From a virus: a stretch of DNA of 33,517 nucleotides. A model generated the notes under the pieces. That model was not told where the DNA came from. It did no database searches and worked only from the letters and a program-made list of their open reading frames with translations. The translations under genes and the position numbers were made by a program. This document shows positions 4,876-32,818 of the stretch, piece after piece (the first letter of the stretch is position 1; each line of letters begins with the position of its first letter). The stretch spans positions 1 to 33,517 of the IMG/VR virus record IMGVR_UViG_3300031539_000164. One strand, 5' to 3'.

Positions 4876-5032
4876 TCGTGGTGTCCTCCTTTCGTTCGTG
4901 TTCTTGCATATGATTTATAATCCAATGCGATATATAGGTGAGCGTTTTGTTAACGGCCATTGTCCAGAACAAAAGGAAAAGTATAAGTGTTATACAAACA
5001 GCGAATCCTATTTCGAGTTCATAGGGTTTCAT
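4865..5032 (-). CDS. Single-pass membrane protein, 55 aa
   Basis: The ATG at 5030-5032 overlaps the preceding stop (ATGA) and has AAAGGAGG eight bases upstream. Residues about 8-27 are hydrophobic (GFAVCITLILFLLFWTMAV), followed by a second mildly hydrophobic stretch (TLTYISHWIIN) and a charged tail, HERKEDTTNGE. The codons for ERKED form the SD of the next gene. One of a set of tiny early membrane proteins with no assigned function. Confidence 0.72.
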   Translation of the reverse strand: MKPYELEIGFAVCITLILFLLFWTMAVNKTLTYISHWIINHMQEHERKEDTTNGE

Positions 5033-20713: not shown

Positions 20714-21205
20714 TCACTTCAGGACTGTCACGCCCTGCCAGTATTCTATCATGTCGCGAATTTCGCGGGCGACCGATGTACTCGACACCGATCCGCCGCC
20801 GACCGACTCCGAAATTTCCTTGCATCGATGCGTCGCGAGCCAGTGGAGAATGTCAACCATGACCGTCGGGAAATCGACTCGCGCCCCGGTGACGTTAATT
20901 GTTTCCGTCGAGTGCGTCCCGGTTGTAACCGATATCGATCCGCGAGCGTTAACGAGATAGACGCAATCATCCTCACCCGTAAAGGTTGGGTTGTAAAGCA
21001 TTAACCCGTATGAATAGCCGTGATAGTTTTTATAAAGCCCGGTCGTGACCTTTTGAAATACCCACGTCGATTCCTCCGCCATGATGTGCTCGAAAATAAA
21101 ACGGTTTATTTCCGCGTCGCTCATGATCTTGTCCGTGCCCTTCCAGTCCAGGGCAAGGCGGATTTCGTCGAGCACTGTCACGTATGTGTAGGTTGCGGCG
21201 GCCAT
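20714..21205 (-). CDS. Head-tail connector-like protein, 163 aa
   Basis: The ATG at 21203-21205 forms TAATG with the upstream enzyme gene. The N-terminal half is helical (VTVLDEIRLALDWKG; DAEINRFIFEHIMAEES) and the middle beta-rich; the C-terminus is helical again (AREIRDMIEYWQGVTVL). Its place before two gp10-like genes is where a gp6-like adaptor is normally encoded, and the helix-rich ends suit that, but I see no diagnostic motif. Treat as a connector candidate by position. Confidence 0.55.
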   Translation of the reverse strand: MAAATYTYVTVLDEIRLALDWKGTDKIMSDAEINRFIFEHIMAEESTWVFQKVTTGLYKNYHGYSYGLMLYNPTFTGEDDCVYLVNARGSISVTTGTHSTETINVTGARVDFPTVMVDILHWLATHRCKEISESVGGGSVSSTSVAREIRDMIEYWQGVTVLK

Positions 21206-22989
21206 TATATTTCGAGCCTCGTTTCGGACAGAGTTTTAAAAACGATTCCTTCCCGTCGATAATAGTTTATCATACTTTGCAGATTTGCAAGTTGCGACCA
21301 GTTTTCGCCACGCGAATAATCGATAGAACATTCGGCGATTGTCCCGTCGAAATAAGTATCCCCTCGCATATCGACACCACAGAGGATGATTTCCCTCGCG
21401 CCTCCCCGGGCGGCAATATCGATTGCAACCGCGCTTATGCTTCCGTAAGCCCGATATCGTTCGGGGTCGGGTGTAAATTCGCCGTTGGTAAAGCGCGACA
21501 TCATAGGGATGACGTAATCGCCGTGTTTGGGTGCGATTTTCAACTCGACAGCTTCACCGAACAGGCGCAAGCCCTTGAACTTTTCAAAGCCGAATTTAAA
21601 CCATGCCGTTTTTGGAGCGTCACCGTCCGCGACAACCCACGCATTTATATCGATCGGTATCTCAACTGCCTTGTTTACGGCTATACAATACCCGTCTATT
21701 TCGCCCCAATGTTCTTTACCGTTTGGGCCCGGCGCAAGGATAAAAACGCGCTCGGGTACTGGAAGCGGGTCGTCTATTATGTTTTTGGGAGTCCGGGCGG
21801 GGATTCTCTCAACGTCGAGTTGAGTATCGGAAAGCGACACAATCCGGCATCCGGTCGTTTTCATTGCACGAATAAGATTATTAAAAGCGTCGGCGGCTTT
21901 CCAAGTCTGGCTTTCACGAGTTTGGATATTAATCTTTTTATCCGTTTCCGTCCCGTCGAAATATTTCTCACCGTACATGTCCACGCCACACAGGATTATA
22001 TTCCGGCTCCCAAGCAGATAAGCCAGTTGCACGGCCTGACACGCGATTGTCGCATGACAACGGAGTTCGCCGTTTATGCAGTAATGCCCGTCTTCGAGAA
22101 GACTTTTACCGTGCCGGAATGTGTAGCGAACATCCTTAAATTCCTGTGCGAGTTTGCCCGAATCGAAAACGGGAGTCGGGTTATTCCGATCCATCAGCTC
22201 GTATTCCGAGGCGATGTATTCCCTTGCCGCTTTTTTAAACCATTCCTTTTCCGGAAGCGAGCCGTCGGCACAGAGCCAGATCGATTTGTGAACGCCGGGG
22301 ATTTCGATTGCCTTATTGACGGCAATGACCCATGAGTGAGCGGGGATCTTGTCGTAATGCGCCGCTCCGTTCGGGCCTGTTCCCAATATGTAAACCGGCT
22401 CGGTCTTATCGAAGCGGAGTTCCGTCGCGAATATATCCGTCGGCTTGTCTCGCAACATCACGCCCTCGCGCTTGATTCCCCAAAACTGAACGTCCGTTCC
22501 GTCTGCGTTGTTTTTTAACTCGTATTCCGTAAAAGCCCGCTTCGGATCGAGCGTCTTTTCAAAGTCGGCGTTCGTGCGATTCTGATACCAATCCAGAGTG
22601 AACGGAGATGTATGCGAAGAATGTTTTTTCGTCCCGTGCTCATGCCGCTTTTCCGAGGCGCAAGTGATAATCAGAAGTCCGCCGGGCTTTAACATCCGAT
22701 ACATTGCCCGAAGCGAAAGCTGCCAGTAACGGTCGTGTTCCAACATCTCGGTCGAAATGATCGTGTCGAAATGCTCATCGTGACCGGGGTATTCGTGTGT
22801 GCGCGAAATGAAGTTTACGTTTTTACCTTCACCCAAATCGATGCCGGTGTATCCGCAATGCGCGAACAGCGGCTTGTTACAGCCGTTTATATCCAGACTT
22901 CCACAGTCCAGGGCGCGTATCCTAAAAAACTTTTCCGGGAATCGCGCCTTGACTTCGTTGCAGAATTTTATTTGGTCGTTGTGCGCCAT
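21205..22989 (-). CDS. Methyltransferase fused to two MAF/CST-I-like domains, 594 aa
   Basis: I start at the ATG 22987-22989; the longer frame from 23052 overlaps the upstream gene. Residues 1-165 are a class I SAM methyltransferase: motif I ALDCGSLDINGC (26-37), the acidic strand-2 end YTGIDLGEG (47-55), and MLKPGGLLIITC (99-110). Residues about 198-392 and 414-594 are two copies of one domain: each begins ILGTGPNG- or ILAPGPNG-like, continues VIAVNKAIEIP- or CIAVNKAVEIP-like, and contains the motif ILCGVDMYGEKYFDG (332-346) or ILCGVDMRGDTYFDG (535-549). This order resembles the GT42 sialyltransferase CST-I / MAF (DUF115, MptE-like) superfamily. The protein therefore likely builds or transfers a methylated sugar. 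Lying after the capsid gene, it may act on virion proteins. The family link is by pattern and needs profile search. Confidence 0.72.
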   Translation of the reverse strand: MAHNDQIKFCNEVKARFPEKFFRIRALDCGSLDINGCNKPLFAHCGYTGIDLGEGKNVNFISRTHEYPGHDEHFDTIISTEMLEHDRYWQLSLRAMYRMLKPGGLLIITCASEKRHEHGTKKHSSHTSPFTLDWYQNRTNADFEKTLDPKRAFTEYELKNNADGTDVQFWGIKREGVMLRDKPTDIFATELRFDKTEPVYILGTGPNGAAHYDKIPAHSWVIAVNKAIEIPGVHKSIWLCADGSLPEKEWFKKAAREYIASEYELMDRNNPTPVFDSGKLAQEFKDVRYTFRHGKSLLEDGHYCINGELRCHATIACQAVQLAYLLGSRNIILCGVDMYGEKYFDGTETDKKINIQTRESQTWKAADAFNNLIRAMKTTGCRIVSLSDTQLDVERIPARTPKNIIDDPLPVPERVFILAPGPNGKEHWGEIDGYCIAVNKAVEIPIDINAWVVADGDAPKTAWFKFGFEKFKGLRLFGEAVELKIAPKHGDYVIPMMSRFTNGEFTPDPERYRAYGSISAVAIDIAARGGAREIILCGVDMRGDTYFDGTIAECSIDYSRGENWSQLANLQSMINYYRREGIVFKTLSETRLEI

Positions 22990-24500
22990 AACCTCACGTT
23001 GCCGCCGTCCGGTTTGTAATCGACATTCTTTTCGTCCGGGCGGTCGCCGCATGTATTCGATTGTCCGTGAATGAAATAATATTTATAGCCGGTGTGGTGC
23101 ATGATCGGATCATAAATCTTTTCGATGTGGCGTTTCATCGTGTTGTCACGCGCCCCGCCGACAGGCTCTCCGCTCAATCGTTTCGGCGAACGCCATGACG
23201 ATTCGGCCTCATAGTCCGTGTTGTAAATTTGCTTTGCGATTGTTTTTAATTCAGCCGTTTTGATAACGAGCGTACCGATGGGCGAACGGTAGAAATAATC
23301 CCAGATCATGCCGTTCTGCACGACCGCGCAATCGTAATTCCAGCAAAGCGGATGCCCTTTGATTATCGGATCAACGGCTTTGATAGTGTAATCGGGCGGG
23401 TATCTGTCGTCCTCATCCCACCACATCGTGACAGGTTCGCTTGCGATTTCGCAGAATGCCATGAGCTTCAATGTCCATAAATCCGGCCACTCACCCTCTA
23501 CATCGATCTCAACAATGCGGATCGGGAAGTTATGTTTGATTCGAGGCGGGAATTCGCCTCCGTAATTTCGCTGTCTCAACAGGTAAATCGTTTTGAGTTC
23601 GGGCGGATAGTCCTGATTTATCGCGTCGATAATAGCGTTCATGCGGTCTATCGGGTCGAACGTGAAACAACAATATGCGACGGCGGGAAGCGTTGTCGGT
23701 TCCCCGTTAGCCTTGACCGCTTCGAGAATAGCAACTGTCGGCTTTCGGAGTTTCGTTTCGGAAAGCGTTTCGATCAAAATCCCCTTGCGCTGGTAATATT
23801 CGATGGTGTTATCGAACAGGTCGCGGGCTTGCCATGTTTTGCCGTGCCTCTCATCCTTGCGTATTTCGCCGTCGAAATATTCATCACCGGAAAGGTCGAA
23901 GCCGCACAGAATGATATGCTTCGCCCCGCACATCGCGGCGATTTCGACAGCCGCACTCCCGACAGTCCCGCCGACGCGAACGCCCGTCTTGTCCGGCTCC
24001 CATGCGCCGTGAGTCGGAGCGCATAGTTTAAATGTAAATTGTTTCGCGGGATCGTTGAAACCTTCCCCGGCCTCCTCCGAAAATATGCGAATGCCGCCGA
24101 ACGCTTTCGATGCGGCCTTGAACCATCCGGTCTTCACCGTATCCGGGTCGAGTACGACCCAGCATGAAGGCTTTATCTCCGCTATCGTGACGGCTTTGTT
24201 TACGGCTATAACGTAAGCAGTCGCGGGTATTTGCTTATAATGTTCGCGACCCTTCACGCCCGATCCGACGATATAAACGACATCGGGCATTTGCAACCCG
24301 GATGCGCGGATATCCTTGATGGGGATTTTTATTTTCGCAGGCCCCGCGAGGTATTCCTTTGCCTCAACAAAATCGAATTCCAGTCGTTCGCCGTCAGCGT
24401 TCGAAACGTATCTGCCGGTCGATTTGCACCGGATGAAATAAAACCCGGCATCCTTGATGTTCTTGTCTACGGTGAAGGCTTTTATCATCTCGTAAGGCAT
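22968..24500 (-). CDS. MAF/CST-I-like domain fused to a GT-A glycosyltransferase-like domain, 510 aa
   Basis: I start at the ATG 24498-24500 because the GTG at 24534-24536 lies inside a strong hairpin. An SD is not obvious. Residues about 1-65 are an unassigned N-terminal segment. Residues about 75-255 match the repeated domain of the 594-aa protein (VYIVGSGVKGREHYKQIP; YVIAVNKAVTIAE; motif ILCGFDLSGDEYFDG). Residues about 272-500 look like a GT-A (GT2-type) transferase: AVAYCCFTFDPIDRMNAIID, then MWWDEDDRYPPDY, where the acidic cluster would be the metal-binding DxD. It is the first gene after the capsid gene and is followed by the 594-aa enzyme, with a 22-base overlap. A joint role in virion or host-surface glycan modification is inferred. 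Confidence 0.7.
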   Translation of the reverse strand: MPYEMIKAFTVDKNIKDAGFYFIRCKSTGRYVSNADGERLEFDFVEAKEYLAGPAKIKIPIKDIRASGLQMPDVVYIVGSGVKGREHYKQIPATAYVIAVNKAVTIAEIKPSCWVVLDPDTVKTGWFKAASKAFGGIRIFSEEAGEGFNDPAKQFTFKLCAPTHGAWEPDKTGVRVGGTVGSAAVEIAAMCGAKHIILCGFDLSGDEYFDGEIRKDERHGKTWQARDLFDNTIEYYQRKGILIETLSETKLRKPTVAILEAVKANGEPTTLPAVAYCCFTFDPIDRMNAIIDAINQDYPPELKTIYLLRQRNYGGEFPPRIKHNFPIRIVEIDVEGEWPDLWTLKLMAFCEIASEPVTMWWDEDDRYPPDYTIKAVDPIIKGHPLCWNYDCAVVQNGMIWDYFYRSPIGTLVIKTAELKTIAKQIYNTDYEAESSWRSPKRLSGEPVGGARDNTMKRHIEKIYDPIMHHTGYKYYFIHGQSNTCGDRPDEKNVDYKPDGGNVRLWRTTTK

Positions 24501-24512
24501 AATATTATTGCA

Positions 24513-24541
24513 GGGGAGGGCGGTTTTTGCCGCCACTCCCC
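24513..24541 (-). terminator. Strong hairpin after the capsid gene
   Basis: GGGGAG-GGCGG (24513-24523) pairs with CCGCC-A-CTCCCC (24530-24541) around a six-base loop, 11 pairs with one bulged base. It lies 35 bases after the capsid stop and 13 before the next ATG. On the minus strand only a mixed TGCAATAATATT follows, not a U run, so it is more likely a partial terminator or an RNA 3'-end stabiliser that raises capsid over enzyme expression. Confidence 0.6.
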
Positions 24542-24575
24542 CTTATATCTCGGCTGACAGGAGACCGAAATTGGA

Positions 24576-26154: not shown

Positions 26155-26183
26155 TATTTATCACATTTCGGTGAATGTGTCAA
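26155..26183 (-). promoter_or_regulatory. Promoter P3 for scaffold and capsid
   Basis: Minus-strand TTGACA (26178-26183), 17-bp spacer, extended -10 TGA-TAAATA (26155-26160), in the short gap between portal and scaffold genes and partly over the portal stop codon. The layout and the TGTGA-TAA block match the other two promoters. The expected start lies about 20 bases before the scaffold SD. A separate promoter here would raise capsid and scaffold output over portal. Confidence 0.78.
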
Positions 26184-27217
26184 CGGAAAAGTTTCGTGCC
26201 CTTGCGTTTATAAAGTGCTTCATCAAGGAATCCCTCATCCCGTCCGCGTTTCAGCATGTCCAGTTCCTCGCCTATTTCAAGCGGCGTGAGAATCCCGATT
26301 CCACCGAAATCGACCTCATAGCCGATCATCTCGTAAATATCATCAAGCGCCCGCCGAATGAGTTTGATGTAATGCAGCATCGGTGTCATGGCCAGGCGGC
26401 GCGCCACTCCCGACATCGTGGCCGTCTCCGATATCTCGACGACGTGGGTGTTTTTGAACCAGAGTTGGATGAGCTTATCGCCTTCCCGCATTAACTGATC
26501 CGCCGTGTTGTTCGACGCGACACGGGTTATAGTCGCGTTGCCGGGGATGTAGATTATCTGCGCCCCCGCTTTAAGTGTCTCCTGCGCTTTTTTCACATCA
26601 CCGACATAGCCGGAAACGACGAGGGAAAGCGATGCCGGGCCTGTTTGCATGCGTATTGAATCCTCGATCTCCTCGATACGCTGATACGTTTTCCGATTCG
26701 GCTCAAGAATGCCCTTACCATACGGGTAAGCAATGAATGCTTCAAGCGGGTATTCGCCCCAATCTGCAATGAGCTTCTGATCCTGCGTGCCGTAAGCTTC
26801 GTAATCGCGCACTGTCCAACCCGTCGCCGTTTTCATATAGACGCGAGTATTCCCCGTTATCGCGCCCTTGTCGTTGCGGATGTGTTGCAGAACGAGATTT
26901 TTCTTTATGACATAACAATCTCGCAGGAATAAATACTTTTCATCCTCACCTTCGGGGATTAAGCGGAGCGCGAACGATCCGTCAACGAGAAGTTGCTCAC
27001 TCATTTTCTCAATCGGTATTTCCGGCCACTCGGTCGCGCTTGTCGCTTTTAATTCCGAATCGCCAGCGATGAATGCTTCAAGGATTTCCGGTGTGCTCTT
27101 GTTCAAGCCGGTGTAGCTTTGTTCCTCGAATATTTCGCGACCCGTGAGGATCGGGTATTCATCGCTCATTTTAACCGGGGTTATGATTGTGTCGAGTAAT
27201 CCTTTTTGTTCGGGCAT
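26180..27217 (-). CDS. Portal protein, 345 aa
   Basis: The portal is the dodecameric ring through which DNA is packaged. The gene sits right after the large terminase; the SD GGAGG is in the terminase's last codons, nine bases before the ATG. Recognisable portal features are the region HIRNDKGAITGNTRVYMKTA-like strands, the segment GKGILEPNRKTYQRIEEIED (clip/stem start) and the long stem helix near the C-terminus (MSGVARRLAMTPMLHYIKLI), followed by RRALDDIYEMIG. At 345 residues it is short for the family, which often exceeds 400, with little sequence after the stem helix, so the crown may be reduced. Confidence 0.8.
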   Translation of the reverse strand: MPEQKGLLDTIITPVKMSDEYPILTGREIFEEQSYTGLNKSTPEILEAFIAGDSELKATSATEWPEIPIEKMSEQLLVDGSFALRLIPEGEDEKYLFLRDCYVIKKNLVLQHIRNDKGAITGNTRVYMKTATGWTVRDYEAYGTQDQKLIADWGEYPLEAFIAYPYGKGILEPNRKTYQRIEEIEDSIRMQTGPASLSLVVSGYVGDVKKAQETLKAGAQIIYIPGNATITRVASNNTADQLMREGDKLIQLWFKNTHVVEISETATMSGVARRLAMTPMLHYIKLIRRALDDIYEMIGYEVDFGGIGILTPLEIGEELDMLKRGRDEGFLDEALYKRKGTKLFR

Positions 27218-31461: not shown

Positions 31462-31490
31462 ACCTTATCACATTTTCCGGCCTTTGTCAA
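31462..31490 (-). promoter_or_regulatory. Promoter P2 for the replication genes
   Basis: Minus-strand TTGACA (31485-31490), 17-bp spacer, extended -10 TGA-TAAGGT (31462-31467), in the short gap before the replication-initiator gene. The transcription start should be near 31455. A near-palindromic AACTCT...AGAGGTT (31432-31453) follows the start and could be an operator. Confidence 0.75.
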
Positions 31491-32818
31491 AACAGCTTCT
31501 CCTGCCGGGCCTCGGCCTCGATCCGCCTCAATCCCATCTCGCAATATTTTGGGTTCAACTCAATCCCTATCGCCCGGCGGTTCAGTTGCAAGGCCACGAG
31601 GAGCGTCATGCAAGCCCCGGCGAACGGGTCAAGAACCGTAGCCGGGACCGTTCCGGCATGTTCGCAATCACAATCCGAATCCCAGCCGGTCGTTTGCTTT
31701 GCGGGGGATATCGGCGAACCGTCGGCCTTAAAATTTCCAGAATGCCCCTTGAACGACGTTCCCCCGCCTCCCATTTCCGGCGTGAAGGGTTTGCAATCGC
31801 ATGAGGGTTGCCAGCCGAGGGTTTTGTTTTTCACCGGGACGTTCGATGCGTGATTTTTTGGCTGTAAATTTGTAAAACCATCGGGTTTCCCGGTATCATC
31901 CTTCCAAGCCTTATCACTTTTCAGTAATGCTTTATACTCATCGGTTAATTCCACCACCCTCACCCACGGCTTCCCGCACCGCTCGCAAACGCCCCGCTCG
32001 CTCGTGCCCGCGAGTATGCACTTGCGGGGAAGCTCCTCCGGGAAAGTTGCAAAGTGGGATTCGGGGTAGGGTTGGGTTGCCATAGTCCAGACGTTGCGGA
32101 GGTTGCGACCGGAAGGATTATATCCCATGCCGTCTCCACCTGAACGTTGAATATTAAATCCCTCACGCTCCCTTGCGGGATTTTTATAATTTTCCGCACG
32201 CCTAATATCATGTTCCTCCCTCACCGCCTCCGCGTCGTAAAAATACCGACTCGCTTTCGTTAACAGGTAAATCTTTTCGTGCGAGCTTGTCGGCCTGTCG
32301 GTCACGGATTCGGGCATGGGGTTCGGTTTCGCCCAGATGATCTCAGAGCGCAACCACCAGCCGTCGGCCTGTAACGCAATGGCAAGGCGGGCGGGCATCA
32401 TGAGGAGGTCTTTGGGTTTGAATGAATCGGGAACAGCTCGAGCCTCGAATAATTCCTCTCCGGTTTCGCCGTTCATTCTTCTACGTCTACGTCCATAAAC
32501 GCCATCACCGGCATCACAACTTTCAGGGTGAAAAGTCCCCGATTTTCCTTGTGCATAACAATCCCCGCAATTAAGCCAGAACGTCCCGTCGCTCCTGAGT
32601 ACCCGCCGAATCTCGCGGCATACCGTAACCATCTTGTCAAGCCAGTCCTGAAAGGTAGGTTCAAGGCCGATCATGCCGGAAACGCCGTAATCGCGCAAGC
32701 CCCAGTACGGCGGGCTTGTAACGCAACAATGCACAGATTCATCGGGCATCGCGGCGAGGCAGTCCATTACATCGCCCTGGTAAAGCGTCGCGTTGCCTAT
32801 AGTGACCGGGTTATTCAT
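31487..32818 (-). CDS. DNA methyltransferase (N4-cytosine/N6-adenine, beta-type order), 443 aa
   Basis: It transfers methyl groups from SAM to the exocyclic amino group of adenine or cytosine in DNA. The catalytic motif IV, TSPPYWG, is at residues 34-40, and the SAM-binding motif, DPFAGACMTL, at 397-406, followed by GIELNPKYCEMGLRRI. Motif IV before motif I is the beta class; S-P-P-Y is common in N4-cytosine enzymes. A central insert has cysteine pairs (GVCERCGKPW near 290, SCDCKPF near 348, DCDCEH near 385), a probable zinc-ribbon. It overlaps the endolysin stop (ATGA). No paired restriction gene is seen, so it probably protects phage DNA. The specificity cannot be read from sequence. Confidence 0.9.
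   Translation of the reverse strand: MNNPVTIGNATLYQGDVMDCLAAMPDESVHCCVTSPPYWGLRDYGVSGMIGLEPTFQDWLDKMVTVCREIRRVLRSDGTFWLNCGDCYAQGKSGTFHPESCDAGDGVYGRRRRRMNGETGEELFEARAVPDSFKPKDLLMMPARLAIALQADGWWLRSEIIWAKPNPMPESVTDRPTSSHEKIYLLTKASRYFYDAEAVREEHDIRRAENYKNPAREREGFNIQRSGGDGMGYNPSGRNLRNVWTMATQPYPESHFATFPEELPRKCILAGTSERGVCERCGKPWVRVVELTDEYKALLKSDKAWKDDTGKPDGFTNLQPKNHASNVPVKNKTLGWQPSCDCKPFTPEMGGGGTSFKGHSGNFKADGSPISPAKQTTGWDSDCDCEHAGTVPATVLDPFAGACMTLLVALQLNRRAIGIELNPKYCEMGLRRIEAEARQEKLF

Follow-up and report, generated by a model that had tools for sequence, protein, structure and literature searches.

Genes and features of the locus

The stretch of DNA analysed here, hereafter the window, spans positions 1 to 33,517 of the virus record IMGVR_UViG_3300031539_000164. 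Positions 21205-24500 are filled by two co-directional minus-strand genes, P2 followed by P1, which lie between a 290-amino acid presumed capsid gene and a 163-amino acid presumed adaptor gene (Table 1). Together the two products carry three copies of one domain, which by sequence profile and structural model is GT42/MptE-like, along with a S-adenosylmethionine (SAM)-dependent methyltransferase domain and a GT-A-like domain. Most likely, the kit serves to decorate virions with a methylated sugar chain, and it is a fused form of a recurring kind of putative phage glycan-gene island. The original prediction of two large genes directly after the capsid gene was borne out, the capsid gene being recognised by its position.

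Table 1. Features of the cassette and its flanks (positions in the window; aa, amino acids; ORF, open reading frame)
Feature	Position	Strand	Basis and remarks
Presumed head-tail adaptor, 163 aa	20714..21205	-	Other flank of the slot
Protein P1, 594 aa	21205..22989	-	Methyltransferase and MptE-like copies A and B; ORF, PF01973, PF08241
MptE/GT42-like copy B	21208..21756	-	Protein P1, residues 433-615 of the 615-aa ORF; PF01973 in two stretches
MptE/GT42-like copy A	21808..22407	-	Protein P1, residues 216-415 of the 615-aa ORF
SAM-dependent methyltransferase domain	22468..22989	-	phrog_32762 (E value 1.7e-41); front of protein P1
Protein P2, 510 aa	22968..24500	-	MptE-like copy C and GT-A-like domain; ORF, PF01973
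GT-A-like domain with WWDEDDRYP	23016..23681	-	DEDD at 23406-23417; C-terminal part of P2
MptE/GT42-like copy C	23742..24290	-	P2, residues 83-265 of the 522-aa ORF; borders by profile search
Strong RNA hairpin	24512..24542	-	Between presumed capsid gene and P2; -24.1 kcal/mol, z -4.5
Presumed major capsid protein, 290 aa	24576..25448	-	Gene order only; flank, outside the cassette

Both genes have alternative starts, an upstream GTG at 24536 in the case of P2 (522 aa) and an upstream ATG at 23052 in the case of protein P1 (615 aa). The hairpin covers the GTG of P2, which favours the ATG at 24500, while GAGG immediately precedes the ATG of protein P1 at 22989 and the match to phrog_32762 starts at residue 22 of the 615-aa ORF. 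The starts called originally (510 and 594 aa) are therefore plausible.

The repeated domain and its fold

The three copies are pairwise 31-40% identical (BLAST E values 4e-30 to 7e-42), and the DNA form of the motif CG-X-D-XX-G-XX-YFDG occurs three times in the window, versus a mean of 0.00 in shuffled sequences. The reading of three copies of one domain over two genes is thus upheld, and the domain borders given for it were right within a few residues. Both protein P1 (37.7 bits) and P2 (36.9 bits) exceed the PF01973 cut-off of 34.6 bits. The G-X-G, N-K-A, D, and G-X-D-XX-G-XX-YFD positions are conserved over the copies and their relatives, and the YFD tyrosine is conserved in all three copies.

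P2 was modelled by AlphaFold2 from 17 sequences. The predicted local distance difference test (pLDDT) was mostly 80-97 over copy C. Block means for the MptE domain were for the most part 76-97, with a dip around residues 210-220, whereas the remainder of the model was poor. The top PDB matches of the modelled domain in Foldseek were Cst-I (E value 3.8e-4) and Cst-II (E value 1e-3), each with a probability of 1.00, although these matches are distant, with 12-13% identity and a target-normalised template-modelling score of 0.43-0.46. Further matches included ST6GALNAC2 and the thiamin pyrophosphokinase 3k94. The GVDM-G-YFDG motif is similar by eye to the GIDFYQNGSSYAFD stretch of Cst-II, which is of the GIDF-Y-FD type. 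The catalytic residues of Cst-II are a histidine base and two tyrosines.

Sequence profiles were compared using alignments of the three copies (A1), of window-type domains (A2) and of phrog_4603-type domains (A10; D3, PAJU2, phage P1 PmgO, S20, and others). Direct matches to phrog_4603 (E values 1.3e-6 and 7.7e-4) covered part of the domain only, and the whole-domain hhalign comparison of A2 with A10 gave a probability of 99.1% (E value 7e-19), versus at most 0.3% in eight column-shuffled controls. The A10 profile finds Cst-II at 1e-6, as opposed to 0.07 for MptE. The nearest PDB entry to the A2 profile is MptE (E value 0.27), and no direct sequence-profile match of A2 to the solved GT42 enzymes was found; the sequence link between the window domain and GT42 therefore runs via A10. 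Based on the Foldseek matches, the A2-A10 alignment, and the finding of Cst-II by A10, the repeated domain is classed as GT42/MptE-like. The resemblance originally read from the order of the motifs accordingly holds for PF01973 and for the Cst-I/Cst-II fold, while the direct profile match to GT42 is the part of the proposed check that did not come out. The MAF enzymes, also named at that time, are related to the MptE-like family, and no MAF-specific model was matched in the Pfam and NCBIfam profile scans. Glycosyltransferase activity is predicted for the cassette with good confidence.

The methyltransferase and GT-A-like domains

The prediction of one SAM methyltransferase domain agrees with the phrog_32762 match and with Pfam scores above the cut-offs of two class I SAM families, PF08241 (30.8 versus 21.2 bits) and PF13489 (28.9 versus 27 bits). 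This methyltransferase is 36% identical to genes of the phages S-CBS4 and phiPsal1 that neighbour glycosyltransferases in the head regions, between portal and head protease/capsid in S-CBS4 and between capsid and neck in phiPsal1.

The GT-A-like domain of P2 shares 30% identity with a free-standing gene in an uncultured phage contig (L008), and DEDD is kept in both known members. Profile searches of Pfam, PHROG and NCBIfam with the DEDDRYP domain gave no match. A low-confidence model (pLDDT 46) matched many GT-A enzymes, none significantly (best E value 0.044), and was set aside as too weak to rely on. Of the earlier description, the domain itself stands, and its GT-A character is putative.

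Relatives in other phages

Among viral contigs, no relative was detected with protein P1, protein P2 or A1 as the query. A DNA motif pattern did detect relatives, which thus come from motif scans and not from a census. Three of the contigs (L005, L006, and L007) have the same head-to-tail gene order as the window wherever they cover it. Exactly one 284-aa MptE-like gene occupies the slot that holds P2 and P1 in the window, so that the slot belongs to this phage lineage and the version in the window is enlarged. In a phylogenetic tree copies B and C group (98/95) and the L007 gene groups with no single copy. An in-place triplication of the relatives' single gene is therefore not shown by the tree, and the exchange of a module is no less likely. 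Nor did the tree support copy A as an orthologue of L008:30-773, despite 39% identity and a common NPTPVF insert. An N-terminal extension common to P2 and the L007 gene was likewise discarded, being not significant alone (score reached in 55 of 2000 shuffles).

Further contigs were fetched by the MptE domain alone, regardless of position. In eight of them the MptE-like gene lies at most three genes after a recognised capsid gene, which is of the PF05065 type in L020, L021, and L026, of the DUF6260 type in L023, L028, L029, and L031, and of phrog_1005 in L027. In L008, L019, L022, and L024 such placement was not seen in the stretch covered. In L029 (6392-10521) and L031 (5467-9122) the capsid gene is directly followed by MptE-like, GT2, and NDP (nucleoside diphosphate)-sugar epimerase genes, to which L029 adds a radical-SAM/B12 enzyme gene. 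In L028 (4570-6702), a single 710-aa protein encoded after the capsid gene is a fusion of MptE-like and Methyltransf_24 domains with a part that is GT-A-like by eye.

Related genes also occur in named phages. The homologous stretch of D3 lies between capsid (orf6) and connector (orf9), in the orf6.5/orf7 region, and the order in Psp6 is capsid, an MptE-like stretch annotated as two small genes, an unknown gene, a methyltransferase, and the connector. Tetraselmis viridis virus S20 has a pair of MptE-like genes between capsid (phrog_10) and head closure, accompanied there by a GT-D gene, a methyltransferase, and one further glycosyltransferase. In PAJU2 the MptE-like gene (gp10) comes after head closure and the second gene beyond it is a methyltransferase, and in phage P1 PmgO and PmgP occur together with the glycosyltransferase PmgQ in a cluster named morphogenetic. 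The domains encoded by D3, PAJU2 (gp10), phage P1 (PmgO/PmgP), S20, and Psp6 belong to phrog_4603, which is labelled alpha-2,3-sialyltransferase. This family is homologous to the window domain and is often found between capsid and connector with glycosyltransferase or methyltransferase genes; its members, however, are single-domain separate genes, whereas the copies of the window are fused within two proteins and represent a divergent subfamily with YFDG. We found no study of the function of phage MptE/DUF115 genes in the literature. MptE-like proteins of about 300 aa from metagenome-assembled genomes of Gallionellaceae and other proteobacteria (L035-L039) match the window family.

The cassette had been regarded as foreign to the head-tail connector region. 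Genes of the same family nevertheless lie beside capsid or connector genes in D3, Psp6, S20, and PAJU2, as well as in L007 and the eight contigs above, and because many unrelated phages carry relatives in this position the view is refuted: the placement is not unusual among phages. There is no sign of recent import in base composition, which is about 50-54% GC within and around the cassette.

The layout was likewise thought to be undescribed. An identical arrangement of three copies over two proteins was not found among the relatives, although parts of it recur. Two MptE-like copies are present in S20, L023, L019, and L027, BFVD holds MptE-like entries of 685 and 700 aa (judged on their MptE-like part), and the L028 fusion is described above. 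The L008/G004 cassette, whose contig of 47.9 kb also encodes a P22-like portal, unites three MptE-like genes, the GT-A-like gene, and a methyltransferase gene in a single run, along with a further gene that is glycosyltransferase-like by eye. It differs in that its genes are separate and upstream of terminase, its methyltransferase is of another family, and two acetyltransferase genes stand among the three MptE-like genes (724-1868). The best NCBIfam model for these is PseH (E value about 1e-16, below cut-off), an enzyme of the pseudaminic acid pathway. What seems new in the window is therefore the layout, with three copies fused into two genes, along with the divergent subfamily marked by YFDG.

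Flanking genes and the intergenic hairpin

The identity of the presumed capsid gene was deduced from the order TerL, portal-like, scaffold, capsid. Its translation start is probably a few codons inside the call, and it has counterparts of about 44% identity in L005 and L007. Neither Pfam, PHROG, PDB, nor profile-profile comparison gave family support for this 290-aa protein. The adaptor gene has 53-54% identical counterparts in L005-L007, likewise placed after the MptE-like gene, and family searches with it (Pfam, PHROG) gave nothing of weight. The 345-aa gene at the portal position (26180-27217) also lacked a family match of weight. When backbone proteins were searched against named phages, the terminase had a single weak match (Thermus phage Riverbug, 21.5% identity) and neither the presumed capsid nor an 853-aa tail-region protein had any; the backbone looks like that of an undescribed lineage. 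A DNA N4/N6 methylase gene (PF01555, E value 2e-44) is located at 31487-32818 on the minus strand, upstream of the packaging genes.

The hairpin that separates P2 from the presumed capsid gene has positional equivalents in L007 (about 4947-4976) and L005 (between 1465 and 1570), where the stem sequences are different. It may stabilise the capsid mRNA or lower read-through into the cassette.

Proposed function of the cassette

We consider it somewhat more probable than not that the two genes form a phage-encoded virion glycosylation cassette, in which host-made activated sugars are transferred onto a virion protein and capped by methylation. We infer the enzymatic activities, donor, order of steps, acceptor, and benefit as follows. 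The three GT42/MptE-like domains and the GT-A-like domain, on two polypeptides encoded among the head genes, would take host-made activated sugars. For some steps the donors might be CMP (cytidine monophosphate)-linked sialic-acid-type sugars or Kdo (3-deoxy-D-manno-octulosonic acid), as suggested by the GT42 and WaaZ relatives, the use of CMP-sialic acid being putative. A short glycan would be built in the cytoplasm on a virion protein, most plausibly the neighbouring capsid protein, and the methyltransferase at the front of protein P1 would cap a sugar. The benefit might be shielding of the particle or altered surface properties.

A glycan is proposed because GT42-like, GT-A-like, and methyltransferase domains occur together and because relatives have epimerase and PseH-like acetyltransferase genes. 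The virion is proposed as acceptor because the genes are placed among head genes behind unrelated capsid types, namely those of the eight contigs, D3, Psp6, and S20, where an MptE-like gene lies just after the capsid gene and the neighbours are GT2, GT-D, methyltransferase, and NDP-sugar epimerase genes. A glycan role, as suggested originally, is well supported and fits the neighbours of the relatives. Mycobacteriophages offer a parallel, as phage-encoded glycans are reported on their capsid and tail tube (cited in PMC12619734). The MAF proteins, which PMC4065374 and PMC11339370 describe as transferring sialic-acid-like sugars in the cytoplasm onto self-assembling flagellin, are an analogy only, as the window has neither a match to a MAF-specific model nor a flagellin context.

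Several points weigh against a glycan on the virion or limit the reading in other ways. The support comes from gene context, out of which acceptor, donor, and activity are drawn, and the window's own capsid gene is known by gene order only. Since the relatives were collected by motif scans, post-capsid placement is a count and not a statistic, and several contigs are mutually related (L020/L021/L026 and L023/L028/L029/L031). The genes of L008 and phiNP lie upstream of the terminase genes, those of CcrColossus follow a tail gene, and the phage P1 copies do not adjoin the capsid gene; PmgO, PmgP, and PmgQ, the closest relatives to have been studied, are moreover non-essential and dispensable in the laboratory (PMC10695390; the knockout survey of phage P1 is PMC9024508). 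In the A2 alignment copy C shares a histidine following YFDG with the L007-type gene and two L008 genes, and copies A and B lack this residue, which may mean different chemistry. Finally, no sugar-nucleotide synthesis gene was recognised in the subset of window genes that was scanned.

Cst-II, WaaZ, and the GT-A enzymes act on bacterial cell-surface glycolipids. This, with a weak match of the L007 gene to WaaZ (E value 4.6e-4, far below cut-off), is what favours a modification of glycans on the host surface, either during lysogeny or at a late stage of infection, whereby superinfection would be blocked or progeny kept off debris. We hold this to be rather unlikely, as in many unrelated phages the genes are inside the head cluster and not in a separate conversion module. 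Glycosylation of the phage's DNA bases against restriction has a precedent in the glycosyltransferases of DNA-hypermodifying phages cited in PMC12619734, yet the position with head genes, the PseH-like acetyltransferase and NDP-sugar epimerase genes of relatives, and the failure to recognise a base-hydroxylation, kinase or similar partner in the cassettes examined make it improbable.

Placement among head genes would also suit non-catalytic assembly factors or head-assembly chaperones, and the names in the databases point the same way, the phage P1 relatives being called putative morphogenetic and the PAJU2 homologue a structural protein. Such a role is nonetheless hard to reconcile with the conserved motif positions of the copies and relatives, the dispensability of the phage P1 homologues (PMC10695390), and the fusion to methyltransferase and GT-A-like domains, and we give it little weight. 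Least probable is a pyrophosphokinase activity of the domains, on pterins or otherwise, although the Pfam name MptE (6-hydroxymethylpterin diphosphokinase) hints at one. PF01973 membership, the match to 3k94, and MptE as the nearest PDB entry to the A2 profile are all in keeping with it, but sialyltransferases lead the fold matches, the related phage family prefers Cst-II to MptE, and the neighbours are glycosyltransferases, with no pterin gene recognised among the genes scanned; pathway context and leading fold matches thus point to sugar transfer.

Within virion glycosylation, a more specific version can be put forward tentatively. The cassette might be a fused assembly line in which three GT42/MptE-like transferases of separate specificities work with a GT-A enzyme to assemble an oligosaccharide, at most four sugars long, directly on the capsid protein, with a cap added by the fused methyltransferase. 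It might then belong to a widespread unrecognised class of MptE-type virion glycosylation islands, which are inserted behind capsid genes in tailed phages of unrelated kinds and resemble by analogy the glycosylation of flagellin by MAF. If so, a family whose present labels are sialyltransferase, morphogenetic or unknown would stand at the centre of a common route of particle decoration. This would matter for the stability of phages, for surface recognition, and for immune clearance, and the MptE/GT42-like enzymes would gain a new class of protein acceptors.

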